Source of the DNA: Lachnospiraceae bacterium | Lineage (GTDB): Bacteria; Bacillota; Clostridia; Lachnospirales; Lachnospiraceae | NCBI GenBank assembly: GCA_017624855.1 | Contig: JAGAMF010000004.1 | Span: 1 to 64,000 of the forward strand | Direction: 5' to 3' | DNA: 64,000 nt | The notes under the pieces: model-generated | What the model saw: only the letters and a program-made list of their open reading frames with translations | Databases searched by the model: none | What the model was told of the DNA's origin: nothing | In this document: piece by piece, positions 25,110 through 59,782 of the stretch | Layout of the letters: each line of letters opens with the position of its first letter | Position numbering within the stretch: position 1 is the stretch's first letter | Position numbers and translations under genes: made by a program

Positions 25110-25383
25110 AAAAAAAGTCGCCTCCTTTTCGCACTTTATAAAATCTAAGTACGACAAGCGGTGACTGTACACTCTCCCGTGTGTATCCTAAACCTTTACG
25201 CAACCCCAGAATTGCTTCCGAACCGTATCGGCCAAGACTCTCACGTCGTTTCTACCTGTTGTAGACATGTTGTTTTGTACAGTGACTTGTCGCCAGTATC
25301 TTGACTTGACATTCGCTCCATGTAAAAACCTATCCATTTTGCCGGATAGCAACCTTACATTTCATCGCTATCATGCCACAGCA
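25110..25383 (-). promoter_or_regulatory. folded leader of the S10 operon, candidate L4-responsive element
   Basis: About 270 bases lie between the promoter and the rpsJ ATG. Long-range pairing is visible: ACTGTACA and CGACAA on the 5' side (within 25276-25292) match TGTACAGT and TTGTCG on the 3' side (within 25152-25171), closing a domain of about 140 bases. Nearer the promoter, a CTATCC/GGATAG stem (25330-25349) is followed by GTTTTTA on the minus strand, resembling a terminator. S10 leaders bound by L4 are known in Firmicutes; assignment here is by position and fold. Confidence 0.65.
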
Positions 25384-34280: not shown

Positions 34281-35156
34281 TTATTCCTCGCGAAGTGCTT
34301 TGTTCAGTTCGTTCAACACCCGCTTCTTATCTGCGCTCCATGCAGGCGCAATCAGAGTCTTTTTATTCCCATCGCCGGTGAGTCGGTGAATTACCATATC
34401 GGAAGGAATCCGTTCAACGCACTCCCGAATAATTTGAATGTATTCATCCAACGCAAGGGTTTTAAAAGCTCCATCGGCATAATCTTTCGCCAAATCCGTC
34501 CCCTGTATTACATGCAGAAGCTGAAGCTTAATGCCTTCTGCCTTGCTCTGCACCACATAATCCACGGTTCGCAACATATCCTCTTTCGTCTCTCCCGGCA
34601 AGCCGATAATCACATGAGTGATTACTTCTATGCCGATGTCATGAAGTTTTTCTACCGCCCGGTCATAGACTTCGTTGGGATACCCTCTTCGAATGTATTC
34701 CACAGTCTCTTCTTTTACGGTTTGTAAGCCAAGCTCTACCCAGACCGGTTTGATACGGTTGAGCCTTTTAAGCATTGCCAAAATATCTTCCGGCAAGCAA
34801 TCCGGTCTTGTGGCAATGGAAAGCGCCACCACTTCTTCATCTTCCAAGGCTTCGAGGAATTTCGGTTCCAGGAACTCCACGCTGGCGTAAGTATTGGTAA
34901 AAGACTGAAAATAAGCGATGTATTTGCCGCCTTTATTCTTGGCCGCAATTCTTTCCTTGGCTGCTTTTAGCTGTTCCCGAACCGGCAAAGACGCCTCGGT
35001 GGCAAAATCGCCGGAACCTGTATCTGCGCAGAAAATACAACCACCCACCCCAATCGTACCGTCACGATTGGGGCAGGTGCATCCACTACTTAATGCAATT
35101 TTGTATACCTTTGTTCCAAATCTCTCTTGGAGATGTTGATTTAAACTTTTATACAT
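34281..35156 (-). CDS. TIGR01212-type radical SAM protein (YhcC/YtqA family)
   Basis: The protein has 291 residues from the ATG at 35156, which overlaps the last codons of the upstream gene by eight bases. Cysteines 26, 28, 40 and 43 (SGCTCPNR then GGCIFC) form the cluster pattern of this Elp3-like family. The substrate is not established; relatives have been linked to tRNA or oxygen-stress processes. Its coupling to the rubredoxin-type gene upstream is notable. Confidence 0.88.
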   Translation of the reverse strand: MYKSLNQHLQERFGTKVYKIALSSGCTCPNRDGTIGVGGCIFCADTGSGDFATEASLPVREQLKAAKERIAAKNKGGKYIAYFQSFTNTYASVEFLEPKFLEALEDEEVVALSIATRPDCLPEDILAMLKRLNRIKPVWVELGLQTVKEETVEYIRRGYPNEVYDRAVEKLHDIGIEVITHVIIGLPGETKEDMLRTVDYVVQSKAEGIKLQLLHVIQGTDLAKDYADGAFKTLALDEYIQIIRECVERIPSDMVIHRLTGDGNKKTLIAPAWSADKKRVLNELNKALREE

Positions 35157-37920
35157 GATAAATATCTGTATACTCTGCAATCTCTCTGTCTGTTGTGCAA
35201 AGATCCTTTACATTCAAGTCTTCCACATCATAGTGACCGGTAAGTCTTGCATAATTCTTCAAGCCATCAATCATCTCGTTCATATTTGCGGGACGATTTC
35301 TCAATGCAATAACATCTGCACCCATAGCCATAATCTTAGCAAGTTCTTCCGCATCCTTAGCACCGTCTAATGCAATTACAATATCCATATCGGACTGAAC
35401 CGTATTCAGATATTTGGTTGCACGATGTAATGCGTAAGGAAGAGGCACAACACTAAAGTTATTCAGTACTACATAATCAGGCTTTGCAAATACGCAGAAT
35501 TCCAAATCTCTTTCGATTCTTGCGGCACCCATTTTAATACCGATGGGACATCCGTCAGATTCAAGACGAAGGAAGTTAACAACCTGACGCAAATCTTCTT
35601 TGGAGTTGATGGTCTTTTCAATTCCGTTACCGTGTCCTACGATAATCTCAATAGCGTCTGCCTTCTGATAATCTTCACTGGTTAAGCCACTGTTGGGAAT
35701 GTACTGAACCATGTTGTAAGCACCTGTAGAGAATACAGGATTATCCAATACAAGAGGTCTCTCGGAAGCAATACCCAGTACGGTTCTACCTTCCACAGCC
35801 GTTCCTTCCGGCAAAGGCATGGGATTCAACTGTGCAGGCACAATAAGAATCTTCTCAAGGTTGTTGCAGTAAGCGGTTTCTTTTTCTTCGCTTACGCACT
35901 CTTCTTCCGGCATTTCATCTGAAATGCTCTCTTCCGCCTCATACAATTCTTCTGCAAGATTAGCTTTAAATTCGTGATCTTCCTCTTCTTTTTTCTCTTC
36001 TGCAAAATCAACGAACAATTCTTCAATATCTTCTTCGGTTACTTCTTCTTCCACGACTTCATCCATAGTCTTGCTTACGAAGTTAACACCTGCCACCGCA
36101 GAACCGGTAACCGCTCCGGCTTCCACCACATCATCCAAGAAGGACCATGACTTAATGCGGGGCTCTTCGGCTGTCTTTGTCTCTTCCGCATCGGCTTCGA
36201 CAGCTTCATCTTCTGCTGCCGCTTCAACATTTTCAGCTTCGACTGTTTCTTCTGCTTCTACTTCTTCAACTGCTTCTGCTTCCTCAGCTGCTTCAACAGG
36301 CGCATCCTCTGATTCATCCACAAAATCATCTGCATCAACATCCGCAGGAATTACATCAATTTCTTCATCATCAAAGAATACGGAATCATCTTCATCCGAT
36401 ACAGCCACTTCAATCTCGGAAGCAACTTCTTCCGCTTCTGCTTCAACAGCTTCTTCTGCTCCCTCAACCGCATCCTCTCCGGTTACAACTTCAATTCTGC
36501 CACCTTCGGGAACATCATCATCAAATTCAATGGCATCAATTGCCTTAAATACATCTTCTTCCGAAATTGAGGAATCACCGTGATGTTCTTCCTCTTCTTC
36601 ATCCTCAGGGAATGCCGCATCCATCATATTACGGAATGCAATATAGTCCGGATTATCATAGAGGCTTTCTTTCTTCTCTTCCTCTGCAACAGCTTCTTCC
36701 ACAGGTTCAACCACTGCATCGATTGTCATTTCCGTAAAGAAATCATCATCGTTTAATTCATCATCCGCATCTTCGGCATCTGTTCTAAAAGGATACTCCT
36801 CTACCACAGGTTCTTCCTCTGCTACGGTTTCTTCCTCAACAACAGGTTCTTCTACAATTTCTTCCGCAGCCGTTTCTTCCGCTACAACAGGTTCTTCTGC
36901 AGCCGGTTCTTCTGATTCTTCCTCAAAATCCTCGAAGAAAACATCATCCTCATCATCTGCTGCCGGAGTTTCAATCTTCTCTGCAACATCTTCCGTTTCA
37001 GAATAACTTCTAAAAATGACTGCATCAACTGCTTTTGCCTGAGGTTCTTCTGCTTCTTCTGCTTCAACCGCTTCTTCATCAAAGAATTCTTTTACTTCAA
37101 CAGGCTCAGATGTTGCATTCTCTTCCACATCATCTTCCCCGTTAAAAATCTCTTCCACAACAGGCTCTTCCGCAGGCATAACCATGCCAATATTCTCAGC
37201 CTTAACCACCGGTTCATTCTTATCGCCGAAGGGATCGATTACGCGCTGAACAGTACCGCCGCCGCTGTTCCACAAAGGTTTAAAAGGCTCTTCTTCCTCA
37301 TCTGCACCTGAAACAATGTGAGACATGCCCACAGGTTCAGAAGATGAATAAAAGCTTTCGATACGACTACCAAAAGGTGAATCGTCTTCCTTTTCAACTT
37401 CCTGCACAACCGGCGCCTCTTCTTTCTTCTCTTCTCCGCCGATTACGGTTTCAACGGAACCTCTTGCATTGCTGATGGTCCATCCCGTAGTATTGTTGGA
37501 TACCGGTTTGTTTTCAGGTTCCGAACGCAAAGGCGACCAGAACTCCTGTCTTCTTTCTACCACAAAATCAGAAGATGCTTTTACATCTTCATCCTCTTTT
37601 ACCTCTTTATAGATGGAGAAGGGTTCTTCCTTCTCTTCTTTCTCCACGCTAAAAGGAGCAGCCTCTTCTGTTTTCTCAGATACAACTTCTTCCACAGATT
37701 CTTCTTCCTGCGCATCAAAAGGCTCAGCAGCCTTCTCTTCCATAGGTTCTGCCTGTTCTTCTGCTTTCTCTTCCACTACAGGATTGTTGTCTGCATCCAA
37801 AGCGATAAAATTCGCCTTGCTCTCATTGCAAATCGGACATTCACTCAGTTCCTCAAAAGGTCTGCCCGCATGCTGCTCGTTATAAATATAACCGCATACT
37901 TTACATTCGTATTTTGCCAT
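35149..37920 (-). CDS. rubredoxin domain + long acidic linker + glutamate-synthase-like domain
   Basis: The 923-residue protein has three parts. Residues 1-45 form a rubredoxin-type site with C6, C9, C28 and C31. Residues 45-685 are an extremely acidic, Glu/Val/Ala-rich low-complexity stretch, probably disordered. Residues 686-923 match the end of the glutamate synthase FMN domain: PIGIKMGAARIERDLEFCVF, PYALHRATKYLN, and GHYDVEDLNVKDLCTTDRE. The usual glycine-rich DGAEGGTG flavin motif is replaced by NNFSVV, so catalysis or FMN binding is doubtful. It heads the string leading to hydE, hydG and hydF. The function is unknown. Confidence 0.85.
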   Translation of the reverse strand: MAKYECKVCGYIYNEQHAGRPFEELSECPICNESKANFIALDADNNPVVEEKAEEQAEPMEEKAAEPFDAQEEESVEEVVSEKTEEAAPFSVEKEEKEEPFSIYKEVKEDEDVKASSDFVVERRQEFWSPLRSEPENKPVSNNTTGWTISNARGSVETVIGGEEKKEEAPVVQEVEKEDDSPFGSRIESFYSSSEPVGMSHIVSGADEEEEPFKPLWNSGGGTVQRVIDPFGDKNEPVVKAENIGMVMPAEEPVVEEIFNGEDDVEENATSEPVEVKEFFDEEAVEAEEAEEPQAKAVDAVIFRSYSETEDVAEKIETPAADDEDDVFFEDFEEESEEPAAEEPVVAEETAAEEIVEEPVVEEETVAEEEPVVEEYPFRTDAEDADDELNDDDFFTEMTIDAVVEPVEEAVAEEEKKESLYDNPDYIAFRNMMDAAFPEDEEEEEHHGDSSISEEDVFKAIDAIEFDDDVPEGGRIEVVTGEDAVEGAEEAVEAEAEEVASEIEVAVSDEDDSVFFDDEEIDVIPADVDADDFVDESEDAPVEAAEEAEAVEEVEAEETVEAENVEAAAEDEAVEADAEETKTAEEPRIKSWSFLDDVVEAGAVTGSAVAGVNFVSKTMDEVVEEEVTEEDIEELFVDFAEEKKEEEDHEFKANLAEELYEAEESISDEMPEEECVSEEKETAYCNNLEKILIVPAQLNPMPLPEGTAVEGRTVLGIASERPLVLDNPVFSTGAYNMVQYIPNSGLTSEDYQKADAIEIIVGHGNGIEKTINSKEDLRQVVNFLRLESDGCPIGIKMGAARIERDLEFCVFAKPDYVVLNNFSVVPLPYALHRATKYLNTVQSDMDIVIALDGAKDAEELAKIMAMGADVIALRNRPANMNEMIDGLKNYARLTGHYDVEDLNVKDLCTTDREIAEYTDIYHV

Positions 37921-38073: not shown

Positions 38074-38646
38074 CTAAAGCGGATTTGCCACTATCCGATG
38101 TATTATATGGGCTGATGGATCATCTAAAATAAAGCACGAACCATAATGTTCTTCTTTCCATACAGTCAAATACTCAACTATCCCATCTGCCTTATAGCGT
38201 ATTCCATACGAAAATCCCTTCTGCCGTGGGGTTCCGTCCCCATGAAACACTTCCGGCGAAACATCCTGATATGTAGCATTTGCATCCATCTGCACAACAT
38301 AACTGTATATTTCCTTTGTTTCTTCTGCATTAAAATAATTCGGTGTCTTGGTCGTCTCCGGCATCTCATTTAAAAATTCTTCCATGCCGTTCCACTCTTG
38401 CTCCGATACTAATGCCGAATATTTATTTCCCTCCTTATCCAGTACATTCACCCTTATCTTCATTCCGTCATCATATTGTCTATGCAATTCCTGCACCAAA
38501 ATTATCTGCCCCGGTTCTAATTCCTCATAAGTCAGATATCGGTGCGCCTCCTCATACATCGCATCGCGGATATGCACAATTCCAATTACAACAAGAAATG
38601 CACCTACTATTGTGCTGATAATTCCAATTATCTTTTTGCTACTCAT
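38074..38646 (-). CDS. membrane-anchored paralog 5, unknown function
   Basis: The 190-residue protein has one N-terminal membrane helix (about 4-24), followed by the family motif HIRDAMYEEAHRYLTYEELE (about 25-44) and GQIILVQE. The rest is a soluble domain ending in YGSCFILDDPSAHIIHR. The helix lacks a lipobox, so the domain is probably held outside the membrane. It is the last of five tandem family members. I do not recognise the fold. Confidence 0.75.
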   Translation of the reverse strand: MSSKKIIGIISTIVGAFLVVIGIVHIRDAMYEEAHRYLTYEELEPGQIILVQELHRQYDDGMKIRVNVLDKEGNKYSALVSEQEWNGMEEFLNEMPETTKTPNYFNAEETKEIYSYVVQMDANATYQDVSPEVFHGDGTPRQKGFSYGIRYKADGIVEYLTVWKEEHYGSCFILDDPSAHIIHRIVANPL

Positions 38647-38683
38647 TTTTTCATCGCCTCATCACCTAAACAACTACCAATAC

Positions 38684-39280
38684 CTACAACGGACTTTCGA
38701 CTATTCCATATATCATATCTGCCGACGGGTCGTCCAAAATGTAACACGCACCATAGCTTTCTTCCTTCCAGATTGTCAAACATTCAACTGTTCCATCAAC
38801 CCTGTAACGCATTCCATATGAATAAGATTTCCTACGAGGCGTAGGATATATATCCGGTACAGGTTTAGATATATATTTATACTCTGCATTTACATCCATG
38901 TATGTAATAGAATGATATACTTCCGTAGTTCTTTCTACACTTAAACAATTTAATGTCTTAGTCATCTCCGGCATCTCTTCAAGGAATACTTCCATACCTT
39001 CCCATTCCTGCTCCGGTATTAACGCAGAATACTTATTTCCTTCTTTATCCAATATGTTTACTTTTACCATCATTTCTCCATGATATTCATATTGTTCATG
39101 CCATTCCTGCACCAATATAATCTGCCCCGGTTCTAATTCCTCATAAGTCAGATATCGGTGCGCTTCCTTATACATCGCGTCGCGGATATGCACAATTCCA
39201 ATTACAAATACAACAGCAATAAGAACTATGCCTACTAGTATACCTATAATTCCAATTATTCTTTTCTTGTTTTTGCTCAT
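38684..39280 (-). CDS. membrane-anchored paralog 4, unknown function
   Basis: The 198-residue protein shares the N-terminal helix, EAHRYLTYEELEPGQIILVQ and the ending EESYGACYILDDPSADMIYG with its relatives. It is most like the copy at 40624: long blocks such as PEMTKTLNCLSVERTTEVY are identical. The spacer after its stop also matches that of the other copy, which shows recent duplication of a whole segment. Its function is unknown. Confidence 0.75.
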   Translation of the reverse strand: MSKNKKRIIGIIGILVGIVLIAVVFVIGIVHIRDAMYKEAHRYLTYEELEPGQIILVQEWHEQYEYHGEMMVKVNILDKEGNKYSALIPEQEWEGMEVFLEEMPEMTKTLNCLSVERTTEVYHSITYMDVNAEYKYISKPVPDIYPTPRRKSYSYGMRYRVDGTVECLTIWKEESYGACYILDDPSADMIYGIVESPL

Positions 39281-39432
39281 TATTCCACCTTTCTTCTCCT
39301 ATGTTTCGGTAGAACATATTAACAATTACAATCATCTGTTTTGTTACATTTGATTATACTTTCGAGTCTTTCGGATTTTCGTTCTATACTTAAGCTATCT
39401 TTTATCATTCATACAAGTTGTCGGGAAACATT

Positions 39433-39972
39433 TTATCTTAATGTTTTTAACCAATTAAGAATTTCTCTGGCGTCATCATCCTTTAATCTCCTTTGTATCA
39501 AATCACCTTCACCAGATCCCAGAGAAACAGTTTCTTTTTCTCCATTTACCATATATCGAATGCCTGCGAAACTGGAATATTCTTCTATAAGTAAACTCAT
39601 TTCACACAATGTTTCTTCTCTTGCACTTTTATTAACCCGTAATAATGTTTCATACATATGTTGCACTTCTTTCGGAGATATACTTTCTTCTACTATTTCC
39701 CGGCTAATCAATTCTTCAGTAGAACTATTATAGGGATCACTCCACTCATATATACTAATATGGAGATTGCCACTAACATCATACTCCCATACTTTCTTTT
39801 GAATACCATTCGATTCACGAATTCTAAACACAATCGCATCTTCCGGCAATTCCTCATAAGTCAGACATCTGTGGTCTGCCGCATATTTTACAATACATGC
39901 AACGCTAATGATAACCGTTATAAATAGCAGAAATGAACCAAATAATTCCAATATTTTCTTCTTATTTTTCAT
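39433..39972 (-). CDS. membrane-anchored paralog 3 (divergent), unknown function
   Basis: The protein has 179 residues from the ATG at 39972, chosen because GGAG/GGAGAGG lies just upstream and it avoids overlap with the preceding gene; an in-frame ATG at 40032 is rejected. It has an N-terminal membrane helix (about 8-30) and keeps only the short family motif RCLTYEELPEDA. The remaining domain is diverged and shorter. It sits between two better-conserved pairs of the family. Confidence 0.65.
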   Translation of the reverse strand: MKNKKKILELFGSFLLFITVIISVACIVKYAADHRCLTYEELPEDAIVFRIRESNGIQKKVWEYDVSGNLHISIYEWSDPYNSSTEELISREIVEESISPKEVQHMYETLLRVNKSAREETLCEMSLLIEEYSSFAGIRYMVNGEKETVSLGSGEGDLIQRRLKDDDAREILNWLKTLR

Positions 39973-40007
39973 CCTCTCCGCTCCAAATTTTATGCCAAAA
40001 GCTAAAT

Positions 40008-40586
40008 CTATAAAGGATATCCGGCTGTCCAATATGCGTCTTCTGCCGCCGGGTCATCCATAATATATACTTCCCCAAACCTTCTTTCTTCCCAAAAAGT
40101 TACAAATTCAGCAGTTCCATCATTTCTATATCGTATGCCTATATAGTATTCCTTTTTAACAGGCTTGGGTTCAACAGCCGGAATCTCTTTCATAATGCGC
40201 CTATAGTCTGCATTTGCGTATATTTTTACTATGTCTTCGTATATTTTTTTCATATCGTCATGGCTAATATAATTAGACATAGTTACGCCATCCATAATTT
40301 CCTTCATAGACTCTTCTATTCCCAACCATTCATCTTGCTTCACCAATAAAGAATATAAATTCCCCTCTTTATCTACGGCCTGTATTATTACCTTCATTTC
40401 GCCATCAAACTTTGTATGTGTTTCTAATACTAAAATTATCTGCCCCGGTTCTAATTCCTCATAAGTCAGATATCGGTGCGCTTCCTCATACTTTGCTTCG
40501 CGGATATGCACAATTCCAATTCCATTTACAACAATAACTGCAACTATTATAGCAATGATAATTCCAACTATCTTTTTACTACTCAT
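40008..40586 (-). CDS. membrane-anchored paralog 2, unknown function
   Basis: The 192-residue protein has the N-terminal helix, then HIREAKYEEAHRYLTYEELE and PGQIILV, and the YIGIRYRNDGTAEFVTFWEE and MDDPAAED segments at the positions of its relatives' endings. It is the downstream member of the second duplicated pair. The function is unknown. Confidence 0.75.
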   Translation of the reverse strand: MSSKKIVGIIIAIIVAVIVVNGIGIVHIREAKYEEAHRYLTYEELEPGQIILVLETHTKFDGEMKVIIQAVDKEGNLYSLLVKQDEWLGIEESMKEIMDGVTMSNYISHDDMKKIYEDIVKIYANADYRRIMKEIPAVEPKPVKKEYYIGIRYRNDGTAEFVTFWEERRFGEVYIMDDPAAEDAYWTAGYPL

Positions 40587-40623
40587 TTTTTCATCGCCTC
40601 ATCACCTAAACAACTACCAATAC

Positions 40624-41214
40624 CTACAACGGTTCTTCTACCACACGATATATCACATCTGCCGACGGGTCGTCCAAAATATAACACGCACCATAGCTTT
40701 CTTCCTTCCAGATTGTCAAACATTCAACTGTTCCATCAACCTTGTAACGCATTCCGTATGAATAAAATTGCCTGCACGGCGAAGGGTACATATCCGGTAC
40801 AGGTTTGGGTACATATTTATACTCTGCATTTGCATCCATGTATGTAATAGAATAATATACTTCCGTAGTTCTTTCTACACTTAAACAATTTAATGTTTTT
40901 GTCATCTCCGGCATCTCTTCAAGGAATGCTTCCACGCCTTCCCATTCTTTCTCCGGTATTAGCGCAGAATACTTATTTCCTTCTTTATCCAATATATTTA
41001 CCTTTACCAGCATTTCTCCGTGTTCTTCAAATTGTTTATGCAATTCCTGCACCAAAATTATCTGCCCCGGTTCTAATTCCTCATAAGTCAGATATCGGTG
41101 CGCTTCCTCATACATCGCATCGCGGATATGCACAATTCCAATTCCAATTCCAACAATAACTGCAACTATTATAGCAATGATAATTCCAATTTTTATTACT
41201 TTCTTATTCTTCAT
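40624..41214 (-). CDS. membrane-anchored paralog 1, unknown function
   Basis: The protein has 196 residues from the ATG at 41214 (MKNKKVIKIGIIIAIIVAVI); an upstream in-frame start would lie inside the MATE gene. It has one membrane helix, then HIRDAMYEEAHRYLTYEELE and the extracellular-type domain ending in ESYGACYILDDPSADVIYR. It starts 11 bases after the MATE stop, so the whole paralog series probably belongs to the exporter's transcript. A role near or with the exporter is only an inference. Confidence 0.75.
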   Translation of the reverse strand: MKNKKVIKIGIIIAIIVAVIVGIGIGIVHIRDAMYEEAHRYLTYEELEPGQIILVQELHKQFEEHGEMLVKVNILDKEGNKYSALIPEKEWEGVEAFLEEMPEMTKTLNCLSVERTTEVYYSITYMDANAEYKYVPKPVPDMYPSPCRQFYSYGMRYKVDGTVECLTIWKEESYGACYILDDPSADVIYRVVEEPL

Positions 41215-41225
41215 GCTTTCTTCCT

Positions 41226-42611
41226 CTAATTCCCCTGTTGCATAACCTTCCATTCCTTGCCCCTTTTATGACGCACAATTACAAAGCACACCACATGCGC
41301 TATAAAAGTCAGCGTCCATGACACGGGATAGGACATGTATATAGTTTCCACGCAGTGATATTCCGGTATCTGAAAAATCGTAGCAAGCCACACCAGACGA
41401 AAAGCGCAGGCGCCAAGGAGGGATACAATCATAGGCACCACGGAACATCCCATACCACGAAGGGAGCCTACCATAACATCCATCATACCGCACAAGGCAT
41501 AGACGCTGCAAATGTAGATAAGACGCACCATACCTGCTTCTACTACCGCCGGACTATCCGTATACAGAGACAGTAACGGCCGTCCAAACAGCACCACCAG
41601 ATTGCCCATAATAACACCGGTGGCAATTACCAACCCCTGCGCCGTATAGAGAATTTTATTTACTCTTTCAAACTTCATGGCACCGATATTCTGGCTGGTA
41701 AAAGAAATCGCCGCCTGGTACATGGAATTCATGGCCACATAGACGAAGCCTTCCACGCTACTGGCTGAGGAATTACCTGCAATCACTGTTTCCCCAAACA
41801 GATTGACCGAAGACTGAATAAACACATTGGACAAGGAAAAAAGCGTACCCTGAAATCCCGCAGGCAAACCAATCTGTATGATTTTCCAGAGTTTGTCTCC
41901 CTGAACCCGTAATTCTTTTATATCAAGGTGAATGCCGCCCTCTTCTTTGATCAGGCAACGCACCACCAGAAAGGCCGATATAAACTGGGAGATTACCGTA
42001 GCCAAAGCAACGCCTGCCACATCCATGTGAAAGCAGATAACAAAAATCAAATTCAGCACAACGTTTACAACGCCGGCAAAACTCAGATAATACAAGGGTC
42101 TTCTGGTATCTCCCACCGCTCTTAAAATAGCGCTGCCGAAGTTGTATACCATGGTTGCTGGCATACCCAGAAAGTAAATTCTTAAGTATAACGAAGCCAG
42201 TTTTAAAACATCCGTCGGCGTGTTCATCATGCCCATAATAATGGGCGCACCGATGCAACCAATCACTGCCAATCCCACACCACTGATGAGACTTAGCGTA
42301 ATGGATGTGTGCACCGTTTCTTTTAATTCTTTCTGCTGATTTGCCCCATAAAATCTTGCTGTCAAAACATTGGAACCTACGGACAGACCGATAAACACAT
42401 TGGTCAGCAAATTAATCAGGGAAGAGGTGGCTCCCACCGCCGCCAGGGAATTGTCTCCGGCATAATTTCCCACCACAATAATATCTGCCGCGTTAAACAG
42501 CAACTGCAGAATTCCGGAACACATCAGGGGCAGAGAAAACAGAAGCATTTTCTTTAATATGGAGCCACTGCACATATCCATTTCATATTTTTTCGCACGC
42601 ATAGCCATCAT
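41226..42611 (-). CDS. MATE-family efflux transporter
   Basis: The 461-residue protein has about twelve membrane helices and the MATE/DinF pattern, with SLPLMCSGILQLLFNAADII near the start and GMPATMVYNFGSAILRAVGD in the first half. Such transporters export drugs or metabolites using Na+ or H+ gradients. The substrate is unknown. The start is uncertain: three ATG codons lie close together and no clear GGAGG precedes them. It heads the paralog series on the same strand. Confidence 0.9.
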   Translation of the reverse strand: MMAMRAKKYEMDMCSGSILKKMLLFSLPLMCSGILQLLFNAADIIVVGNYAGDNSLAAVGATSSLINLLTNVFIGLSVGSNVLTARFYGANQQKELKETVHTSITLSLISGVGLAVIGCIGAPIIMGMMNTPTDVLKLASLYLRIYFLGMPATMVYNFGSAILRAVGDTRRPLYYLSFAGVVNVVLNLIFVICFHMDVAGVALATVISQFISAFLVVRCLIKEEGGIHLDIKELRVQGDKLWKIIQIGLPAGFQGTLFSLSNVFIQSSVNLFGETVIAGNSSASSVEGFVYVAMNSMYQAAISFTSQNIGAMKFERVNKILYTAQGLVIATGVIMGNLVVLFGRPLLSLYTDSPAVVEAGMVRLIYICSVYALCGMMDVMVGSLRGMGCSVVPMIVSLLGACAFRLVWLATIFQIPEYHCVETIYMSYPVSWTLTFIAHVVCFVIVRHKRGKEWKVMQQGN

Positions 42612-53250: not shown

Positions 53251-53269
53251 GAATACATAAAACCAACAA

Positions 53270-53300
53270 AAAGGACTTTGCAAATCGCAAAGTCCTTTCT
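53270..53300. terminator. bidirectional terminator after the aquaporin gene
   Basis: A perfect 12-base inverted repeat (53270-53281 with 53287-53298) has T runs on both strands. It separates the plus-strand aquaporin from the minus-strand DUF4956 gene. Confidence 0.9.
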
Positions 53301-53349: not shown

Positions 53350-54027
53350 CTAGATGCCTACTTCACCATCATGAGACATTAAGGATACCGTGTTCACATT
53401 TGAAAGCTTCTTAATCTCCTTTACCAGTTCCGCATCTTTTTCTTTTATGGAAACAAGTAAAAGCAAATCCATGTTGTCGGAAGTTAAATTACGGGATTTC
53501 ACCTTATATCTCTTCACATACTTCTTTACCACTTCCATAATTGCATCTTCTTCATCCGGATCCTTTGCATTGATTACAAGAAGCTTCGGCTCTTTTACCG
53601 CAGGTAAAAATTCCAAAACCACAACTGCTACGGTTACGAACACGGACACAATCAATGCCACTTCAAACAGTCCTGCGCCGCAGACGATACCAACGGAAAT
53701 CGACCAGAACAAATACACCAAATCCATGGGATTCTTAATTGCTGTTCTGAATCTTACGATAGACAACGCACCGACCATACCGAGGGAAATTACTACGCTT
53801 GACTGAATAGCAAGAATAATGCCTGCCGTAATCATTGCCAGAGCTACCAAAGAGATATTAAAACTCTTGGAATAAAAGGTCTTCTGAGACATAATTCGGT
53901 ATATAAAATAAATATACAAGCCGATGCATGCCGTTACCAACATGGTTACACAAATATCTGTTGTGGTTAAATCCGTCGATACAAATCCTTCCAAAAAAGA
54001 TTTTTTAAGTACATCTGAAAAACTCAT
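53350..54027 (-). CDS. DUF4956 membrane protein, cassette copy B
   Basis: The 225-residue protein has four likely membrane helices in its first two thirds (IYFIYRIMSQKTFYSKSFNI loop, AMITAGIILAIQSSVVISLG, DLVYLFWSISVGIVCGAGLF) and a soluble C-terminal domain (about 145-225). Strong sequence identity to the copy at 56497 is evident in MVGALSIVRFRTAIK and YLFWSISVGI. The family function is unknown. It follows the VTC gene after 30 bases. Confidence 0.88.
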   Translation of the reverse strand: MSFSDVLKKSFLEGFVSTDLTTTDICVTMLVTACIGLYIYFIYRIMSQKTFYSKSFNISLVALAMITAGIILAIQSSVVISLGMVGALSIVRFRTAIKNPMDLVYLFWSISVGIVCGAGLFEVALIVSVFVTVAVVVLEFLPAVKEPKLLVINAKDPDEEDAIMEVVKKYVKRYKVKSRNLTSDNMDLLLLVSIKEKDAELVKEIKKLSNVNTVSLMSHDGEVGI

Positions 54028-54057
54028 CTTTTCTCCATCCTTTTCTTTTTATAAAAA

Positions 54058-54762
54058 TTATAACCCTATGGTTTTTCTGCAAAGTGCATATTTGGAAAAT
54101 GCAGTATGCTGCAAGCCGTCCAGCTCCATTTCCCTACGAATGAATTCCGGAAAGAACTCATCGTACTTTACTTCCAACACATGATATCCCGGTGTTAAAA
54201 CTCTTTTTAACGGAATATCCCGATTGCCAAATTCATCTATGTTTCCACAACCTGAAATGTTACGGTCAAAAGTAATTCTCACATTTCCCGGTCCGTAAAC
54301 ATAAGGGGTTCGGTCATACTGAACGATTACTTTGGGACGCATCAATTTCATCTGCTGCAATGCCACCAGCTTCTTAATCAAGTCGGCATCCTCTTCTTTT
54401 ACAGTGTAAGTGCCTTTCAGAATCGCATCGCACTGCTCACGGGTTAAGCGACAAGAATCCTTATGATTTTTACCGTTTCGCTTCTGCTTACACTCTAAGG
54501 TGATATACTCCATATTGCCATCATAAATGCGGATACGCATTTTCTCTCTTACATTTACACCGTCTATATTGTCATAAAAACAACTGTTGTCGCAATCATC
54601 AAAATACACGCTGCGCACGGCATATTGCCCCGATGCGCCCACATGAGCGTCTTTATGGCAGATATGTTTTATTCTTGCCTCAATAAGCGCCAGTTGCATA
54701 TCGCTGCACAAGTACTTAATTTCATTGCGATACTTCTTCTCTATTATCTCATTCACCGGCAA
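54058..54762 (-). CDS. VTC-domain protein (polyphosphate-polymerase fold), cassette copy B
   Basis: The 234-residue protein has the VTC fold's basic pocket: YRNEIKYL near the start, AVRSVYFDDCDN (about 48), KMRIRIYD, LECKQKRNGKNHKDSCRLT (about 90-108), and VLEVKYDEFFPEF near residue 200. In VTC4 such residues bind ATP-derived phosphate and polyphosphate. Whether bacterial members make polyphosphate is unproven. Its start overlaps the CotH gene's stop by 14 bases, so the two are translationally coupled. Confidence 0.85.
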   Translation of the reverse strand: MPVNEIIEKKYRNEIKYLCSDMQLALIEARIKHICHKDAHVGASGQYAVRSVYFDDCDNSCFYDNIDGVNVREKMRIRIYDGNMEYITLECKQKRNGKNHKDSCRLTREQCDAILKGTYTVKEEDADLIKKLVALQQMKLMRPKVIVQYDRTPYVYGPGNVRITFDRNISGCGNIDEFGNRDIPLKRVLTPGYHVLEVKYDEFFPEFIRREMELDGLQHTAFSKYALCRKTIGL

Positions 54763-56434
54763 ATTCTTCCTCCAAATAATCTCTTCGTTCCCGGATAAAT
54801 TCTTTTACATAATCAATCTCGCCGTCCAAATCCGGCCTGCCCATATAGACGCCCTCCATCTTAGCCGAATCGTAAATAGTTGCGGCATACTCATCCAAAC
54901 CGCCTTCTACCAATTCATCCATATAGGGTAAAAGTTCTTCCATATAAAGCCGTTCCACTTCCGCTCTGAAATCAGGCTTTGCCCAAAGCTGCTCGCTCCA
55001 ATTCGCACGATTCATATATAAACCGGCAGGGTCCTGTAACACCGCAGAATCACCCCAGTTATTGTTATTGCCAAGGGTCGTATCAAAGTCCCACATGGGG
55101 CCTGCATACATTTTATCGTCTCCTTGGGGCTTATAAAAGAAATAACTTGAAAAGCCGGCATCAATATTTTTACTGATTTCATCAATCAGGTACCGAAGGG
55201 CAAAGGATTCCAAATCAATGTAATCCAGATAATATTTTCCATCCAAATTGTATCCGTCTTCCGAATAAAGGGCTTCTTCAAACTTCTGCACATAAGAAGA
55301 GATATATTGCACCTGAGCCTGAGATACATGCTGAGGACTTTTTACCAGAACCGGAATACCGTTCATGGTAATAAAACCGCCTGGCTCCTCATGATATCTC
55401 TGTAAATAAGTCTCCACTTCCAAAAGATAGCCGCCGGAAATATCGTCGGGATTATTGGCTACACCATAGCCCTTCATGGGAATATCGCCCTGTATACTAA
55501 AAGGAGCGTAATTCTCCAAGGGCTGGTCGTTTAAGACTTCCATCTGTTCTTCCAAATCGCCGATTTCCAAGCGACCGCTTGCCACCGCAATTTTCTCTGT
55601 TAAAAGATAGCAACCGTAGTATTCGCCGTTAATATACAAATCAACCCACTGAGACTCCATGCTGTTTTGCAGCCCGCTTTTCTCCGCCATATCCATAAAA
55701 ATTTTGTTGCGCATGCAGGTTACATCCAACGCTCCGCCCAACAAAACCCAGCTTTTACCGGGAGTCATTCCCAGAAGAGAAGCTGCCGCATCAAGCTTAA
55801 GAGTATAACTCTTTTTAAGCATATACCAGCTGGAATTACCTCGACCTTTTAAGGATTCCATCGCGCCGGAATACTCAGGTTTGCCGGTTCCGGAAAGAAC
55901 CATTACGCTACCGCCCGTGGTATGAGACTGGTTTTCATGAATATAGCCCATGCTCTCATTGGTATTAAGCCACAGACTGGGAATAGCGGACCCTTTCATT
56001 ACAAGGAACTCCAATTCTTTATCGTCAAGTTGAATGGTGTGCTCTACACCTTCAGCCAACTCACATTGTACGGATGTTTGAGCGCTCACCTCTACTCCGT
56101 CAAACATAAGCTTAGGACTGCTGCCATCTTCCGAAGTATAAATCACTTGCACTTCGGATAAATCCAGATACTCCGGCAAAAACAGGTAGTATTTACCGTC
56201 ACCGTAACTTTGTTGCATATTTACTTTAGTTACCGTATATTCATCGCCTCTAAGTTCTTTCTCGCCGCCAAAATCCCGGCGTTGCTCGATTAAGCTTACC
56301 TGCGTCTGTCCTTCCGCTGTATGAATATTGAGAAAAACCATATTGGTCGGTTTTTTTAACACAAATGCATACACCAGCAAAAAAACAACACTGACAGCGA
56401 CAATGATAAACGCTGTTTTTCTTTTATTACTCAT
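54749..56434 (-). CDS. CotH-family secreted kinase-like protein, cassette copy B
   Basis: The protein has 561 residues from the ATG at 56434, with AGGAG five bases upstream. It has an N-terminal membrane anchor (about 4-24) and a CotH-type kinase domain: SYTLKLDAAASLLGM (about 215), WVDLYINGEYYGCYLLTEKI (about 275) and AGPMWDFDTTLGNN (about 445). B. subtilis CotH phosphorylates spore coat proteins. Here the domain is predicted outside the membrane. It overlaps the VTC gene. Confidence 0.85.
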   Translation of the reverse strand: MSNKRKTAFIIVAVSVVFLLVYAFVLKKPTNMVFLNIHTAEGQTQVSLIEQRRDFGGEKELRGDEYTVTKVNMQQSYGDGKYYLFLPEYLDLSEVQVIYTSEDGSSPKLMFDGVEVSAQTSVQCELAEGVEHTIQLDDKELEFLVMKGSAIPSLWLNTNESMGYIHENQSHTTGGSVMVLSGTGKPEYSGAMESLKGRGNSSWYMLKKSYTLKLDAAASLLGMTPGKSWVLLGGALDVTCMRNKIFMDMAEKSGLQNSMESQWVDLYINGEYYGCYLLTEKIAVASGRLEIGDLEEQMEVLNDQPLENYAPFSIQGDIPMKGYGVANNPDDISGGYLLEVETYLQRYHEEPGGFITMNGIPVLVKSPQHVSQAQVQYISSYVQKFEEALYSEDGYNLDGKYYLDYIDLESFALRYLIDEISKNIDAGFSSYFFYKPQGDDKMYAGPMWDFDTTLGNNNNWGDSAVLQDPAGLYMNRANWSEQLWAKPDFRAEVERLYMEELLPYMDELVEGGLDEYAATIYDSAKMEGVYMGRPDLDGEIDYVKEFIRERRDYLEEEFAGE

Positions 56435-56496
56435 AAAATCTCCTTGAAAATCCTTATGTGCTTCTCGGACTTTCATGTTTTTATGCTTTTATAAAA

Positions 56497-57171
56497 TTAG
56501 AAAGTTACTTCGCCGTCATGAGATAAAAGAGAAGCGGAAGTTACTCCCTTAATCTCCATAACTCTCTGAATCAGTTCCGCACCTTCTTTGGTTCTTAATT
56601 CAATTACCAAATCCAAAGCATCCTTGGTCATGTTACGGGATTTTACTTTTAAGTGTTTGGTTCCCTTCTTAATCTCTTCCACAATTGCTTTCTCAACATC
56701 AATAGAATCTGCATTCACAATAAGAACCATGGGTGCCTTTGCAACAGGCAACAACTGAAGTACGAGAATTCCCACAGTTACTACCACAGAAAGTATCAAT
56801 GCAATCTCTGCAAATCCCGCGCCGCAAATAATGCCCACACTGATAGACCAGAAAAGAAACATCAAATCCATGGCATCTTTTATGGCTGTTCTGAATCGAA
56901 CGATGGATAACGCACCCACCATACCCAAGGATACGATAATGCTGGATTGCATGGTCAAAACGATGGCTGCCGTAATTACCGCAACACCTGCCAGCGCAAT
57001 GTTAAAGCTCTTGGAATAGAAAGTTTTACGGGTAGCAATGCGATATACAAAGAAAATGTATAATGCAAGTGCGCATACGATTAGAAAGGTTAAAATAATT
57101 GCCTTCGTTCCGATTGTGGTGTCGGTATATCCCTCTAAAAATGATGTTTTTAATATATCTTTAAAACTCAT
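56497..57171 (-). CDS. DUF4956 membrane protein, cassette copy A
   Basis: The 224-residue protein has the same four-helix layout as copy B: FYSKSFNIALAGVAVITAAI, SLGMVGALSIVRFRTAIKDA and FLFWSISVGIICGAGFAEIA. The soluble end (about 145-224) is also conserved. It overlaps the VTC gene by 11 bases. The function is unknown. Confidence 0.88.
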   Translation of the reverse strand: MSFKDILKTSFLEGYTDTTIGTKAIILTFLIVCALALYIFFVYRIATRKTFYSKSFNIALAGVAVITAAIVLTMQSSIIVSLGMVGALSIVRFRTAIKDAMDLMFLFWSISVGIICGAGFAEIALILSVVVTVGILVLQLLPVAKAPMVLIVNADSIDVEKAIVEEIKKGTKHLKVKSRNMTKDALDLVIELRTKEGAELIQRVMEIKGVTSASLLSHDGEVTF

Positions 57172-57889
57172 GTCGTTCTCCTTTTATCATGGTAAATTTT
57201 CTGCATAAATAAAATTTGGAAAATGTGGTTTGCCGCAGATTTTTCAGTTGCAAATTATTATAAATATAATCCGGAAGCAATTCATCATATTTTACTTCCA
57301 ATAACTGCTGTCCAAGCCCCATAATGGGACGCTTAGGAATCTCTTCATCCAAAAAGCATTCCACCGCTGTTGATGCCGCCATATTATGGTCGAGGGTTAT
57401 TCTTACATTACCCATTTTATAAGTATAAGGGATTCTGTCATATTCCACAATCACAACAGGTTTCATGCGCGTGGTCATCATCCGATGTGTAAGTTTTTTT
57501 AACACTTCAGGCTGAGTCGCGATGTCTCGCAGATATTGCCCCGTCATCAAGGTTTGCGTCTGCTCAATCGTCAGCGGGCAACTGCTTTTATGAATTTTAC
57601 CGTGTTCCTTGCGCTTACATTCAAGGGTAATTCTTTCCGCGGAATGATTGTAAATACGGATTCTGAATTTCTCTCGGGGTTCCGTACCGTTCTCATTCTC
57701 GTAGAAGCACCGATTGTCGTAGTCATCAAAGTACAGGCTACGAATATTGTACACACCCTCTGATGCGGCATGTTTGTCCAACGGTAGCATACGATTGATT
57801 TGATTCTGCAACATCTTCATTTGGGCAGTACTGATTAAGTATTTTATCTCATGTCGAAACATGGGATGATTATCGTTTCGTATATCCAT
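57161..57889 (-). CDS. VTC-domain protein (polyphosphate-polymerase fold), cassette copy A
   Basis: The 242-residue protein has FRHEIKYLIS near the start, NIRSLYFDDYDNRCFYEN (about 47), KFRIRIYNHSAERITLECKR (about 73), KIHKSSCPLT and LLEVKYDELLPDY (about 205). These match the VTC pocket and the other copy. It follows the CotH gene after 30 bases and overlaps the DUF4956 gene by 11 bases. Confidence 0.85.
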   Translation of the reverse strand: MDIRNDNHPMFRHEIKYLISTAQMKMLQNQINRMLPLDKHAASEGVYNIRSLYFDDYDNRCFYENENGTEPREKFRIRIYNHSAERITLECKRKEHGKIHKSSCPLTIEQTQTLMTGQYLRDIATQPEVLKKLTHRMMTTRMKPVVIVEYDRIPYTYKMGNVRITLDHNMAASTAVECFLDEEIPKRPIMGLGQQLLEVKYDELLPDYIYNNLQLKNLRQTTFSKFYLCRKFTMIKGERHEF

Positions 57890-57919
57890 TTGGCGTACTC
57901 CAAAATTTGTATATTAAAA

Positions 57920-59659
57920 TTATTCTATCGGTTCCCACTTGGCGTAGATATGCATATCCTGCTCAATAATCTGCGTCTGTTCAAAAGGCATATCACCATC
58001 TGCATCATACCATCCCATGAACCGGAACCCTTCTCTTTCAGGTAATGTTGGCATATCCTTAATTCTTTCTCCCACCGGCACGGTGTAATAAGTATAAAAT
58101 ATACCGTCTTGTACCTCTACTCTTACTGTATAATATTGCATATTTTCCAGCCATACCTTATCCAAAAAAGCTACTCTTTGCGTCAAAAAAGCATCAATAT
58201 CCTGTACATTCTGCTCAAAATCCTCTTCTGTTCCCAAAAACCATCTCGTCTGATTCATCATTGCAGCCGGAGTTATTTGTTCTAAATACATATCTATTTC
58301 TACCTCTTGCAAGGTTTTCAGCTCATCCCTAAACTCCGTCTCATAAAGCAACACAACCTGCTGATAGAACTCCTCTTTTTGATACAGACAATGATACCAC
58401 GGCGTATATCCATACCGGTGAATATATTCTCTGTTTGCAATCATGGCATCGGGCAAAATAAATCTTTGCCGTGCCAATGCATGATCATAATCCCACACCG
58501 GTCCTGCATAGATTTTATCATTTGTACCATCTATATTTCCATAATAATATTGACTTCCATAACTTGCGTCATAACTCATAAAAATCTCTTCGACAAGGTA
58601 TCTTCTCACCCAAGAATCCATATCTATGATTTCCGTATAATGCAATCCTGTCTGCACATCCACCCCATCTTCTGACAAGATTGCCCGTTCGGCCGTCTGA
58701 AACAATGAACTTATTCGCTCTGTCTGATTACCAATCATATTCATCTCATGAATACGTAATCCTATGCCTGCTTCTGTCACGAAATACGGATCTTCCTTTT
58801 CATACAAACGCCCTACAATCTCCTGCGAGACAATATAACTGCCGTCTGCCTCTGCCGAAGAAATATTCACCCGAGACTCACCTGTCTCTATACGCTCGCA
58901 TAATAAATATAAGCCCATGTATTTATTGTTTAAATATAAATCAACCCACTCCGCATCCGGCGAATATGCCAAACCGATTCTGTCCGCAAAATCATACACA
59001 ATTTTATTGTTTAAGTTAGATGCATCTTTTGCATTGGCCAGTAAAATCCATTTTTCCGCTTCGCCCATTTGCAACAAATCCGCCGCATTATCCAGCTTAA
59101 CAGAATATGGTTTTTTCTCATAATTTCCCCAGGTATCGTTCCCGCGTCCGTTCATGGAATCAATTCTGCCGCTGTAATTCAGCTGTCCGTCAGCCGCATA
59201 CAACACCATATTACCGGATTCTTCATTGCCTTTTAATTGGTGGATATAATCCATACTGCCGGAATCCGTACCAATATACATTGTCGCTATGTTGGCAGAC
59301 TGCATGAATTGAATCTGTCCGGTATAAGTTTTCCCCCAGCTTCTGTAACTGAAATCATAAAAACAATTTTTCTCAAAAGCTGCGCAACTCATGCCATCTT
59401 TTAGTTCTTCTCCATTGATAAAAGCCTTGCTTGCCCGCACATCAAATTTTATATCTTCAAAAGCAACATAGCCCGGCAAAAACACATAAAAACATCCGTC
59501 CGGACCTTGCCAATAATCGATATGCTCTGTATGTCCGTCAGAAGTGACTTCCACGCGAAAGGCTACCGGATTTTCTTCTTTTATCTGTATGCCGGCAAAA
59601 TACACACCTACTGCCAAAAGGAGCACTGTAATGATAATGATAACAATTCTGTTTTTCAT
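57920..59659 (-). CDS. CotH-family secreted kinase-like protein with InlB-type repeat, cassette copy A
   Basis: The protein has 579 residues from the ATG at 59659, with AGGAG seven bases upstream. It has a membrane anchor (about 4-22) and a CotH domain: PYSVKLDNAADLLQMGEAEK (about 195), WVDLYLNNKYMGLYLLCERI (about 260) and AGPVWDYDHALAR (about 385). The C-terminal 55 residues, with PEREGFRFMGWYDADGD, form an InlB B-repeat/Listeria-Bacteroides repeat absent from copy B. It is the first gene of the two-cassette string. Confidence 0.88.
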   Translation of the reverse strand: MKNRIVIIIITVLLLAVGVYFAGIQIKEENPVAFRVEVTSDGHTEHIDYWQGPDGCFYVFLPGYVAFEDIKFDVRASKAFINGEELKDGMSCAAFEKNCFYDFSYRSWGKTYTGQIQFMQSANIATMYIGTDSGSMDYIHQLKGNEESGNMVLYAADGQLNYSGRIDSMNGRGNDTWGNYEKKPYSVKLDNAADLLQMGEAEKWILLANAKDASNLNNKIVYDFADRIGLAYSPDAEWVDLYLNNKYMGLYLLCERIETGESRVNISSAEADGSYIVSQEIVGRLYEKEDPYFVTEAGIGLRIHEMNMIGNQTERISSLFQTAERAILSEDGVDVQTGLHYTEIIDMDSWVRRYLVEEIFMSYDASYGSQYYYGNIDGTNDKIYAGPVWDYDHALARQRFILPDAMIANREYIHRYGYTPWYHCLYQKEEFYQQVVLLYETEFRDELKTLQEVEIDMYLEQITPAAMMNQTRWFLGTEEDFEQNVQDIDAFLTQRVAFLDKVWLENMQYYTVRVEVQDGIFYTYYTVPVGERIKDMPTLPEREGFRFMGWYDADGDMPFEQTQIIEQDMHIYAKWEPIE

Positions 59660-59697
59660 CTGTGCGCTCCTTTCCATGGGTTAATTCCTAACTAAGT

Positions 59698-59706
59698 ATT
59701 ATAACA
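59698..59706 (-). promoter_or_regulatory. extended -10 promoter of the CotH-VTC-DUF4956 string
   Basis: On the minus strand TGT precedes consensus TATAAT (59698-59703). No good -35 box is seen. It lies 38 bases before the CotH ATG. Confidence 0.6.
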
Positions 59707-59782
59707 TAGTTTATTTTACATATCTATGTCTTTTATAAAACAAATCAACACAAATGCAAATGCAATCATTCATCAACACATA

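Follow-up and report, generated by a model that had tools for sequence, protein, structure and literature searches.

Strict pairing of VTC and DUF4956 genes with an exchangeable outer partner, and a rare double cassette with CotH in a Lachnospiraceae genome

The window analyzed here, a 64,000-nucleotide stretch of contig JAGAMF010000004.1 from a Lachnospiraceae bacterium (assembly GCA_017624855.1), carries two consecutive cassettes, A and B, each composed of genes encoding a CotH-family kinase, a VTC-family protein, and a membrane protein of the DUF4956 family. Comparison with other genomes revealed that VTC and DUF4956 form a near-obligate pair, that the outer partner of this pair is exchangeable, being either an anchored CotH or a Cthe_2159-type lipoprotein, and that the double-cassette arrangement is rare, although not unique. 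The trio itself is not new to the literature, which describes it as an accessory gene set in Pel exopolysaccharide loci (PMC7112168, PMC12345266). What is new is the wider range of the trio, the strictness of the core pair, the exchange of partners, and the rare double arrangement. An earlier sequence-only reading of this DNA had proposed looking for a conserved CotH-VTC-DUF4956 neighborhood, and both the trio and its gene order indeed recur in many genomes, so the layout represents more than chance.

Among 120 genomes of the family, 125 of the 130 DUF4956 matches have a VTC match on the same strand within 1.5 kb, and VTC lies upstream of DUF4956 in every pair (125/125). Unpaired VTC genes account for 7 of 132 matches, one second piece of a split match (G100) being excluded. 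At the phylum level, DUF4956 was found in 14 of 119 genomes and VTC in the same 14, with equal copy numbers (Fisher p 2e-18, genomes taken as independent). In that sample, 20 of the 21 DUF4956 genes share contig and strand with VTC within 400 bases, the last pair is split over two contigs, and DUF4956 precedes VTC in 3 of the 20 adjacent pairs. Likewise, of 14 control genomes, the same three (Bacteroides, Corynebacterium, and Methanosarcina) gave matches to both families. A further set of 80 named loci, found through DUF4956 and ranking as the best 80 of at least 526 relatives when ordered by similarity to copy A, yielded 74 VTC-DUF4956 pairs. Nine DUF4956-like frames in these loci lack VTC: two are situated at contig ends (the second copy in L072, and L086), the one in L107 is a true MgtC protein, and the remainder belong to L052, L058, L091, L092, L099, and L126. 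A rare two-gene form, CotH plus DUF4956 with no VTC detected, was observed in L091, in L099, and at L092:10416-12814. Mirror-tree correlations over 44 trios reached 0.85 for VTC-DUF4956, 0.65 for VTC-CotH, and 0.71 for DUF4956-CotH; calculated without species-tree control, they are not taken here as evidence of contact.

As for the third gene, at least 52 of the 125 family pairs have CotH no more than 2.5 kb away, upstream in at least 19, downstream in at least 32, and on both sides in at least 1. These CotH counts, drawn from 143 CotH rows among the matches listed, are lower bounds and the CotH-less counts upper bounds; second pieces of split matches were excluded, except one (G086:C350). Twenty of the at most 73 CotH-less pairs (L009-L028) and 20 of the at least 52 trios (L029-L048) were picked by hand for closer examination, with some overlap (G011 and G094 each serve twice, and G062 is among several genomes found in both sets). 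A lipoprotein-like protein of one BLAST cluster is encoded in 16 of the 20 CotH-less loci, two scanned members of this cluster are Cthe_2159, and a local CotH profile gave no match in the 20 loci. According to local profiles, the 74 pairs of the named loci have CotH downstream only (25) or upstream only (22), a Cthe_2159-like gene downstream (8) or upstream (5), both kinds of partner (2), CotH on both sides (1), or neither partner (11). Mapped onto the tree, CotH presence requires at least 17 changes, compared with a mean of 33.5 and a lowest value of 27 in shuffles; partners are thus inherited but also exchanged. At the genome level, 57 of the 60 family genomes with CotH among the matches listed also have a VTC-DUF4956 pair. 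Since two kinds of partner are frequent and CotH is just one of them, VTC-DUF4956 must also work without a neighboring kinase.

In the window, the six minus-strand genes lie where the sequence-only reading had placed them; all six frames are open, and the Pfam domains agree. Cassette A comprises CotH (57920..59659; PF08757 and PF09479), a membrane-anchored kinase-family protein with a C-terminal List-Bact/Flg_new repeat, followed by VTC (57161..57889; PF09359), a predicted cytosolic triphosphate-tunnel enzyme of the polyphosphate-polymerase type, and DUF4956 (56497..57171; PF16316), for which five membrane helices and an ACT/ferredoxin-like domain are predicted. Cassette B comprises a membrane-anchored CotH without the repeat (54749..56434; PF08757), VTC (54058..54762; PF09359; TTG start, with a GTG at 54756 as an alternative), and DUF4956 (53350..54027; PF16316). 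The reported overlaps are real, amounting to 11 bases between VTC A and DUF4956 A and to 14 bases between CotH B and VTC B if the TTG start is used. Automatic open reading frame calls start both CotH genes earlier, at 59677 (A) and 56476 (B); sequences resembling ribosome-binding sites, read by eye, favor the later starts at 59659 and 56434, which are used here.

The simplest reading is a single transcription unit comprising all six genes. A promoter-like site (59698..59726, minus strand; TAGATA, 17 bases, TATAAT, extended TG; 10 of 12 matches) is located 5' of CotH A, and an intrinsic-terminator-like hairpin of 15 pairs with a T tail (53268..53300, minus strand) is located 3' of DUF4956 B. 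The same score of 10/12 is reached by one other minus-strand site, within VTC A (57441), and promoter-like sites are not enriched across the region (20, with a shuffle mean of 21.4). Terminator-like sites number 11, compared with a shuffle mean of 4.9 (standard deviation 2.3), and three short minus-strand ones (5-6 pairs) fall inside the six-gene unit. A further hairpin with a T run was seen by eye near 59820-59783, at the end of the upstream gene, and the neighboring aquaporin gene is on the opposite strand and convergent. Elsewhere in this genome, a third cassette has the order VTC-DUF4956-CotH (G000:C12:516639-520326).

The two cassettes had been described as a tandem duplicate, a term that fits their layout but is too simple as an account of their history: in the trees, neither copy is the other's sister. 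Identity between the copies is 28% for CotH, 45% for VTC, and 57% for DUF4956. A concatenated VTC-DUF4956 tree of 112 pairs places copy A in a group with L077, L045, and L053 (support 0.90) and copy B beside L079 (0.92); the common ancestor of A and B spans 29 leaves (0.96). The corresponding ancestor spans 27 leaves in the VTC tree (0.82) and 20 in the DUF4956 tree (0.81), in which the nearest relative of copy B is L092, unlike in the VTC tree; all are single FastTree runs with local supports of 0.5-0.96. A recent tandem duplication was therefore rejected, as each copy groups with other cassettes. Judging from the trees, either two cassette lineages have become neighbors or the copies descend from an old duplication and have since diverged. 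Within the genus, DUF4956 is present in 20 of 31 genomes, and two are listed within 12 kb in this genome only; an automated scan of the 120 family genomes found one such tandem, the present one. Comparable double sets were nevertheless encountered in G094, where one VTC match contains a stop, and, among the named loci, in L072, with two sets within 12 kb, and in L092, where CotH plus DUF4956 come after VTC-DUF4956-CotH. Cassettes of L057 and L077, whose DUF4956 proteins are 54% and 51% identical to copy A, are on contigs labelled Treponema, which possibly indicates inter-phylum transfer or misbinned contigs.

The VTC proteins match PF09359 with E-values of 4e-40 (A) and 3e-38 (B). The polyphosphate-polymerase fold assigned to them earlier is borne out by a profile match to yeast Vtc4 (3g3q, E 2e-19) and by retention of the tunnel residues; a single-sequence search found no relative. 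The AlphaFold2 model of VTC A (mean predicted local distance difference test, pLDDT, 93.9) has Vtc4 as its best Foldseek match (3g3r, 2.5e-15), with ygiF (5a60, 1.9e-10) and AtTTM3 (2e-7) lower in the list. In the profile alignment, K16, R76, R78, E198, and K225 of VTC A correspond to K200, R264, R266, E426, and K458 of Vtc4 (numbered on chain 8i6v), which we take to be functionally important tunnel residues. All five are invariant in the 62 aligned sequences (alignment A5, 62 of 111 chosen frames), among 22 invariant columns, and E198-V-K200 sits at the position of the Vtc4 LEVK motif. Polyphosphate polymerases are held to lack an acidic patch that other tunnel enzymes have (PMC4641920). At the positions taken to correspond to those of AtTTM3, R12 and K200 are basic and E14 is acidic. 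Like Vtc4, the bacterial protein has a tunnel fold with the tunnel residues; it differs by having no membrane segment of its own and adjoining a separate DUF4956 gene. Its 242 residues are taken up by the VTC domain, which leaves no space for an SPX domain. From the Vtc4-like fold and residues, we propose that VTC would make polyphosphate from ATP. Replacement of PPK1 by VTC was also considered and rejected, as VTC occurs in 81 of 106 genomes with PPK1 and in 10 of 14 without it.

The DUF4956 proteins match PF16316 with E-values of 1e-13 (A) and 5e-13 (B). The AlphaFold2 model of copy A (pLDDT 86.7) predicts five membrane helices and a C-terminal ACT-like domain with the order beta-alpha-beta-beta-alpha-beta; its Foldseek list is headed by ACT and NikR-type domains, with the MgtC C-terminal domain (7qa5) at rank 45, all at E > 0.001. 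G86, R92, R94, and G113 are invariant in all 104 aligned sequences (alignment A4, 104 of 124 chosen frames), conservation peaks in the third membrane helix, GMVGALSIVRFR, and the model places R92 and R94 where a predicted membrane helix ends. The membrane region weakly resembles the MgtC/SapB family, and the predicted ACT-like C-terminal domain would be a further resemblance, but scores stay under the family cut-offs. Specifically, the MgtC domain PF02308 gave 17 bits for copy A against a cut-off of 31.4, 29 of 43 DUF4956 proteins match PF02308 when E-values as high as 10 are allowed (the best being 6e-5), copy B scored 26 bits (6e-6) with the NCBIfam MgtC/SapB model, far under the cut-off of 214, and hhalign against one MgtC protein gave a probability of 22% (E 0.00095). 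The Streptococcus intermedius relative SIR_1592 has been described as MgtC plus ACT with four membrane helices (PMC12345266).

Both CotH proteins score above the family cut-off of PF08757 (6e-35 for A and 2e-36 for B). Their profile matches the Bacillus CotH spore-coat kinase (5jd9) at E 1.5e-43, and single-sequence similarity to it is low (E 0.0065). The two catalytic aspartates, reported as D228 and D251 in B. subtilis (PMC7821199), are retained in both copies; loss of the catalytic residues is what the sequence-only reading had named as counting against it. In copy A, they are D370 and D396 (counting from the start at 59677), and across 23 aligned CotH proteins, including both window copies and excluding three short frames, the second is present in 23 and the first in 22 (mapped via 5jd9, where they are 23 apart). 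Compared with Bacillus CotH, the window proteins add an N-terminal hydrophobic segment and an apparent operon with VTC-DUF4956. The predicted anchor amounts to one such segment in each CotH, with none in VTC A, so the kinase domain should face the outside of the cell. The repeat that the sequence-only reading called InlB-type is indeed confined to copy A (PF09479, residues 516-580). By family, the CotH copies would phosphorylate a surface protein or glycan.

With regard to known systems, the accessory genes of Gram-positive Pel loci comprise cotH, a polyphosphate polymerase, DUF4956, and DUF4832 in streptococci, clostridia, and bifidobacteria (PMC7112168), with SIR_1591-1594 as the S. intermedius counterparts (PMC12345266). 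The window cassettes share their three families and their CotH-VTC-DUF4956 order; they differ in forming two cassettes in one apparent operon that is not beside polysaccharide genes. The 2025 mBio study of S. intermedius states that the trio arrangement was not found outside Pel (PMC12345266). PelG occurs in 25 of the 120 family genomes, and among the matches listed, it lies within 10 kb of 8 of 52 trios, all in the order CotH-VTC-DUF4956, as in copies A and B. For the remaining 44 trios, the surrounding 10 kb gave no PelG match, loci at contig ends being counted too; they include 11 of the 19 trios in the order CotH-VTC-DUF4956 and all 33 in other orders, and they contradict the published statement. 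No PelG match was obtained in our genome (74.5% complete) or in G114 of the same genus (listed as 100% complete), and in this incomplete genome the window cassettes are not contiguous with pel genes.

Another relevant region is NELoc-2 of Clostridium perfringens, which contains two VTC genes, each followed by a membrane protein labelled 'tubulin/FtsZ', together with CotH, a HEAT protein, and a chitin-synthase-like glycosyltransferase (PMC2879425; the locus is also treated in PMC11677781). From their size and position, the 'tubulin' genes would be DUF4956. Like the window, this locus has two VTC plus membrane-protein pairs close together with CotH, but it differs by having a single CotH and a resolvase between the pairs. 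Its layout, VTC-x-CotH-long protein-HEAT-glycosyltransferase, is common to the Planococcus plasmid L132 (VTC-DUF4956-CotH-long protein-HEAT-chitin-synthase-like glycosyltransferase) and, by gene kinds, to L034. A sigma factor near the NELoc-2 cassette parallels L033 and L038, which carry SigI-like and RsgI-like genes near VTC-DUF4956-CotH (one RsgI scanned, the sigma factor read by eye). Resolvase-like recombinase frames were also seen by eye beside the cassettes at L033:9159-9587 and L042:7886-8488. In the accessible part of the twisted-stalk paper, CotH is present, with no mention of VTC, polyphosphate, or DUF (PMC8250860).

Surface-sugar genes stand beside some relatives, which suggests that the cassettes probably help to modify the cell surface. 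In seven of the 80 named loci (L050, L051, L055, L059, L061, L064, and L070), the pair is upstream of two glycosyltransferase genes, a sugar-phosphate transferase gene, and an LCP gene, with two intervening genes in L055 and no CotH found beside VTC-DUF4956 in L059 and L064; identities rest on one scanned member per cluster. The pNP95 plasmid of Pseudobutyrivibrio xylanivorans carries the trio among annotated glycosyltransferases, acyltransferases, and pyruvyl transferases, and MBOAT and AlgX-like genes are near the cassette in L037. Among neighboring proteins of at least 220 residues within 5 kb (L048 gave none), raw counts of Glycos_transf_2 were 10 of 116 by trios and 2 of 111 by CotH-less pairs, and those of Response_reg 6 of 116 and 11 of 111. 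Contig C12 of this genome holds a rhamnose/LCP polymer cluster (RmlB-like, RmlA-like, RmlC, ABC-2, PGM, glycosyltransferase, sugar transferase, LCP) in which PGM and the glycosyltransferase gene are separated by a 27-base gap with no cassette; at this spot, L059 and L064 carry a GtrA or GtrA-like gene, VTC, and DUF4956. As for a possible move of the window cassettes out of this cluster, the 31 genomes of the genus show no listed DUF4956 closer than 10 kb to their top-scoring sugar-transferase gene either, contig ends not being excluded; in G132 and G134, one lies about 7.8 kb from a lower-scoring sugar-transferase gene.

Near the window cassettes, scanned neighbors with matches were an endonuclease/phosphatase, the aquaporin, a flotillin, DUF1508, a flavodoxin, an M56 peptidase, and a GGDEF-EAL protein. 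The latter is encoded about 9 kb upstream of CotH A (L005:8504-10432; G000:C11:68503-70431); L029 likewise has a GGDEF-EAL protein near its trio, and bifidobacterial Pel loci carry a gene similar to the GGDEF-EAL gene (PMC7112168). An Rfam search of the window returned a single match, an S10-Clostridia ribosomal protein leader (25287-25373, 82.1 bits), and nothing at the cassettes. Additionally, two features were read by eye: five adjacent minus-strand frames of about 190-209 residues (38074-41253), four of which share a near-identical HRYLTYEELEPGQIILV motif with the fifth diverged, resembling a tandem family of small anchored proteins, and a 923-residue protein (35149-37920) with a rubredoxin-like N-terminus, a very long acidic Glu/Val-rich middle, and then a C-terminal domain.

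The sequence-only interpretation thus receives partial support. The leading explanation, at slightly less than even weight, is that each cassette serves as an accessory in building or altering a surface polymer, with VTC-DUF4956 producing and moving a phosphate polymer to serve an exported partner. Cytosolic VTC would make the polymer from ATP beside membrane-bound DUF4956, which would pass or gate the product. The third protein would act outside the cell, here as an anchored CotH phosphorylating a surface protein or glycan, perhaps, more speculatively, with the exported phosphate as donor. The strict pairing, the Vtc4-like tunnel, the invariant helix-end arginines, and the extracytoplasmic partner together favor a phosphate polymer made inside and handed outside. 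As the two cassettes are of different ancestry in one apparent operon, one cell would make two versions, probably with two targets.

Several observations weigh against this view. PPK1 is present in 106 of the 120 family genomes, this one included, so VTC is not needed for bulk polyphosphate; E14, invariant across the VTC set, aligns with Thr in Vtc4; the DUF4956 membrane part has no solved relative at E <= 0.001 in Foldseek, and a DUF4956 profile against solved structures gave a best E of 0.13. L091 and L099 have CotH and DUF4956 without detected VTC, 90 of the 143 CotH among the matches listed are more than 2.5 kb from any pair, and no polysaccharide family appeared among 14 scanned proteins neighboring the window cassettes. 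In S. intermedius, Pel is still made when any one of the three genes is deleted, and deletion of CotH or DUF4956 cut aggregation by more than 50% in one of two media, with no such effect reported for VTC deletion (PMC12345266). These deletions make it hard to see CotH as simply dependent on VTC, unless another enzyme makes up for the missing polyphosphate. Our literature search, which covered few subscription papers and no preprints, found no biochemical test of a bacterial VTC with DUF4956 in the accessible texts.

A regulatory module without export, in which the ACT-like domain of DUF4956 senses a signal, CotH phosphorylates surface-polymer machinery, and VTC makes or consumes an internal phosphate signal, appears rather unlikely to us, although CotH has been suggested to regulate Pel by protein phosphorylation (Whitfield et al., PMC7112168) and, in S. 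intermedius, DUF4956 deletion raised Pel and CotH deletion lowered it (PMC12345266). The ACT-like fold predicted by the model agrees with such a role, as do clusters d0 and d1, both represented within 5 kb of DUF4956 in 18 of the 80 named loci, where the scanned d1 member is a histidine kinase and d0, by eye, resembles a response regulator. However, the N-terminal segment of CotH should put its domain outside, away from cytosolic machinery, and pairs without nearby CotH are common (at most 73 of 125). Export of a polyanion for the matrix or for surface metal binding, with CotH and Cthe_2159 acting on the matrix independently and CotH not using the exported phosphate, would be consistent with the exchangeable outer partner and with the resemblance to Vtc4, whose yeast complex couples polyphosphate synthesis to membrane translocation (PMC9911596), but it seems improbable given that a channel role of DUF4956 is only putative and its Foldseek matches are weak. 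That VTC is instead a hydrolase or other tunnel enzyme whose substrate is a phosphorylated metabolite from polymer synthesis, DUF4956 serving as the membrane scaffold, is distinctly improbable: tunnel enzymes have many activities (PMC4641920), ygiF also matches the model, and E14 is acidic and invariant, but Vtc4 is the best match by both sequence and structure, down to the LEVK position. The boldest form of the polymer-export reading, a widespread machine threading cytosolic polyphosphate through the membrane as donor for an extracellular CotH, with interchangeable outer partners and two versions here, we regard as very doubtful.

Extracellular kinases need a phosphate donor, and ATP is scarce outside the cell. 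If it is true that the pair exports polyphosphate, VTC-DUF4956 would count as a bacterial equivalent of the VTC complex in eukaryotes; even without polyphosphate export, the strict pairing points to a shared function. The comparative data define VTC plus DUF4956 as a unit whose outer partner can be swapped and which extends beyond Pel to other surface-polymer settings.

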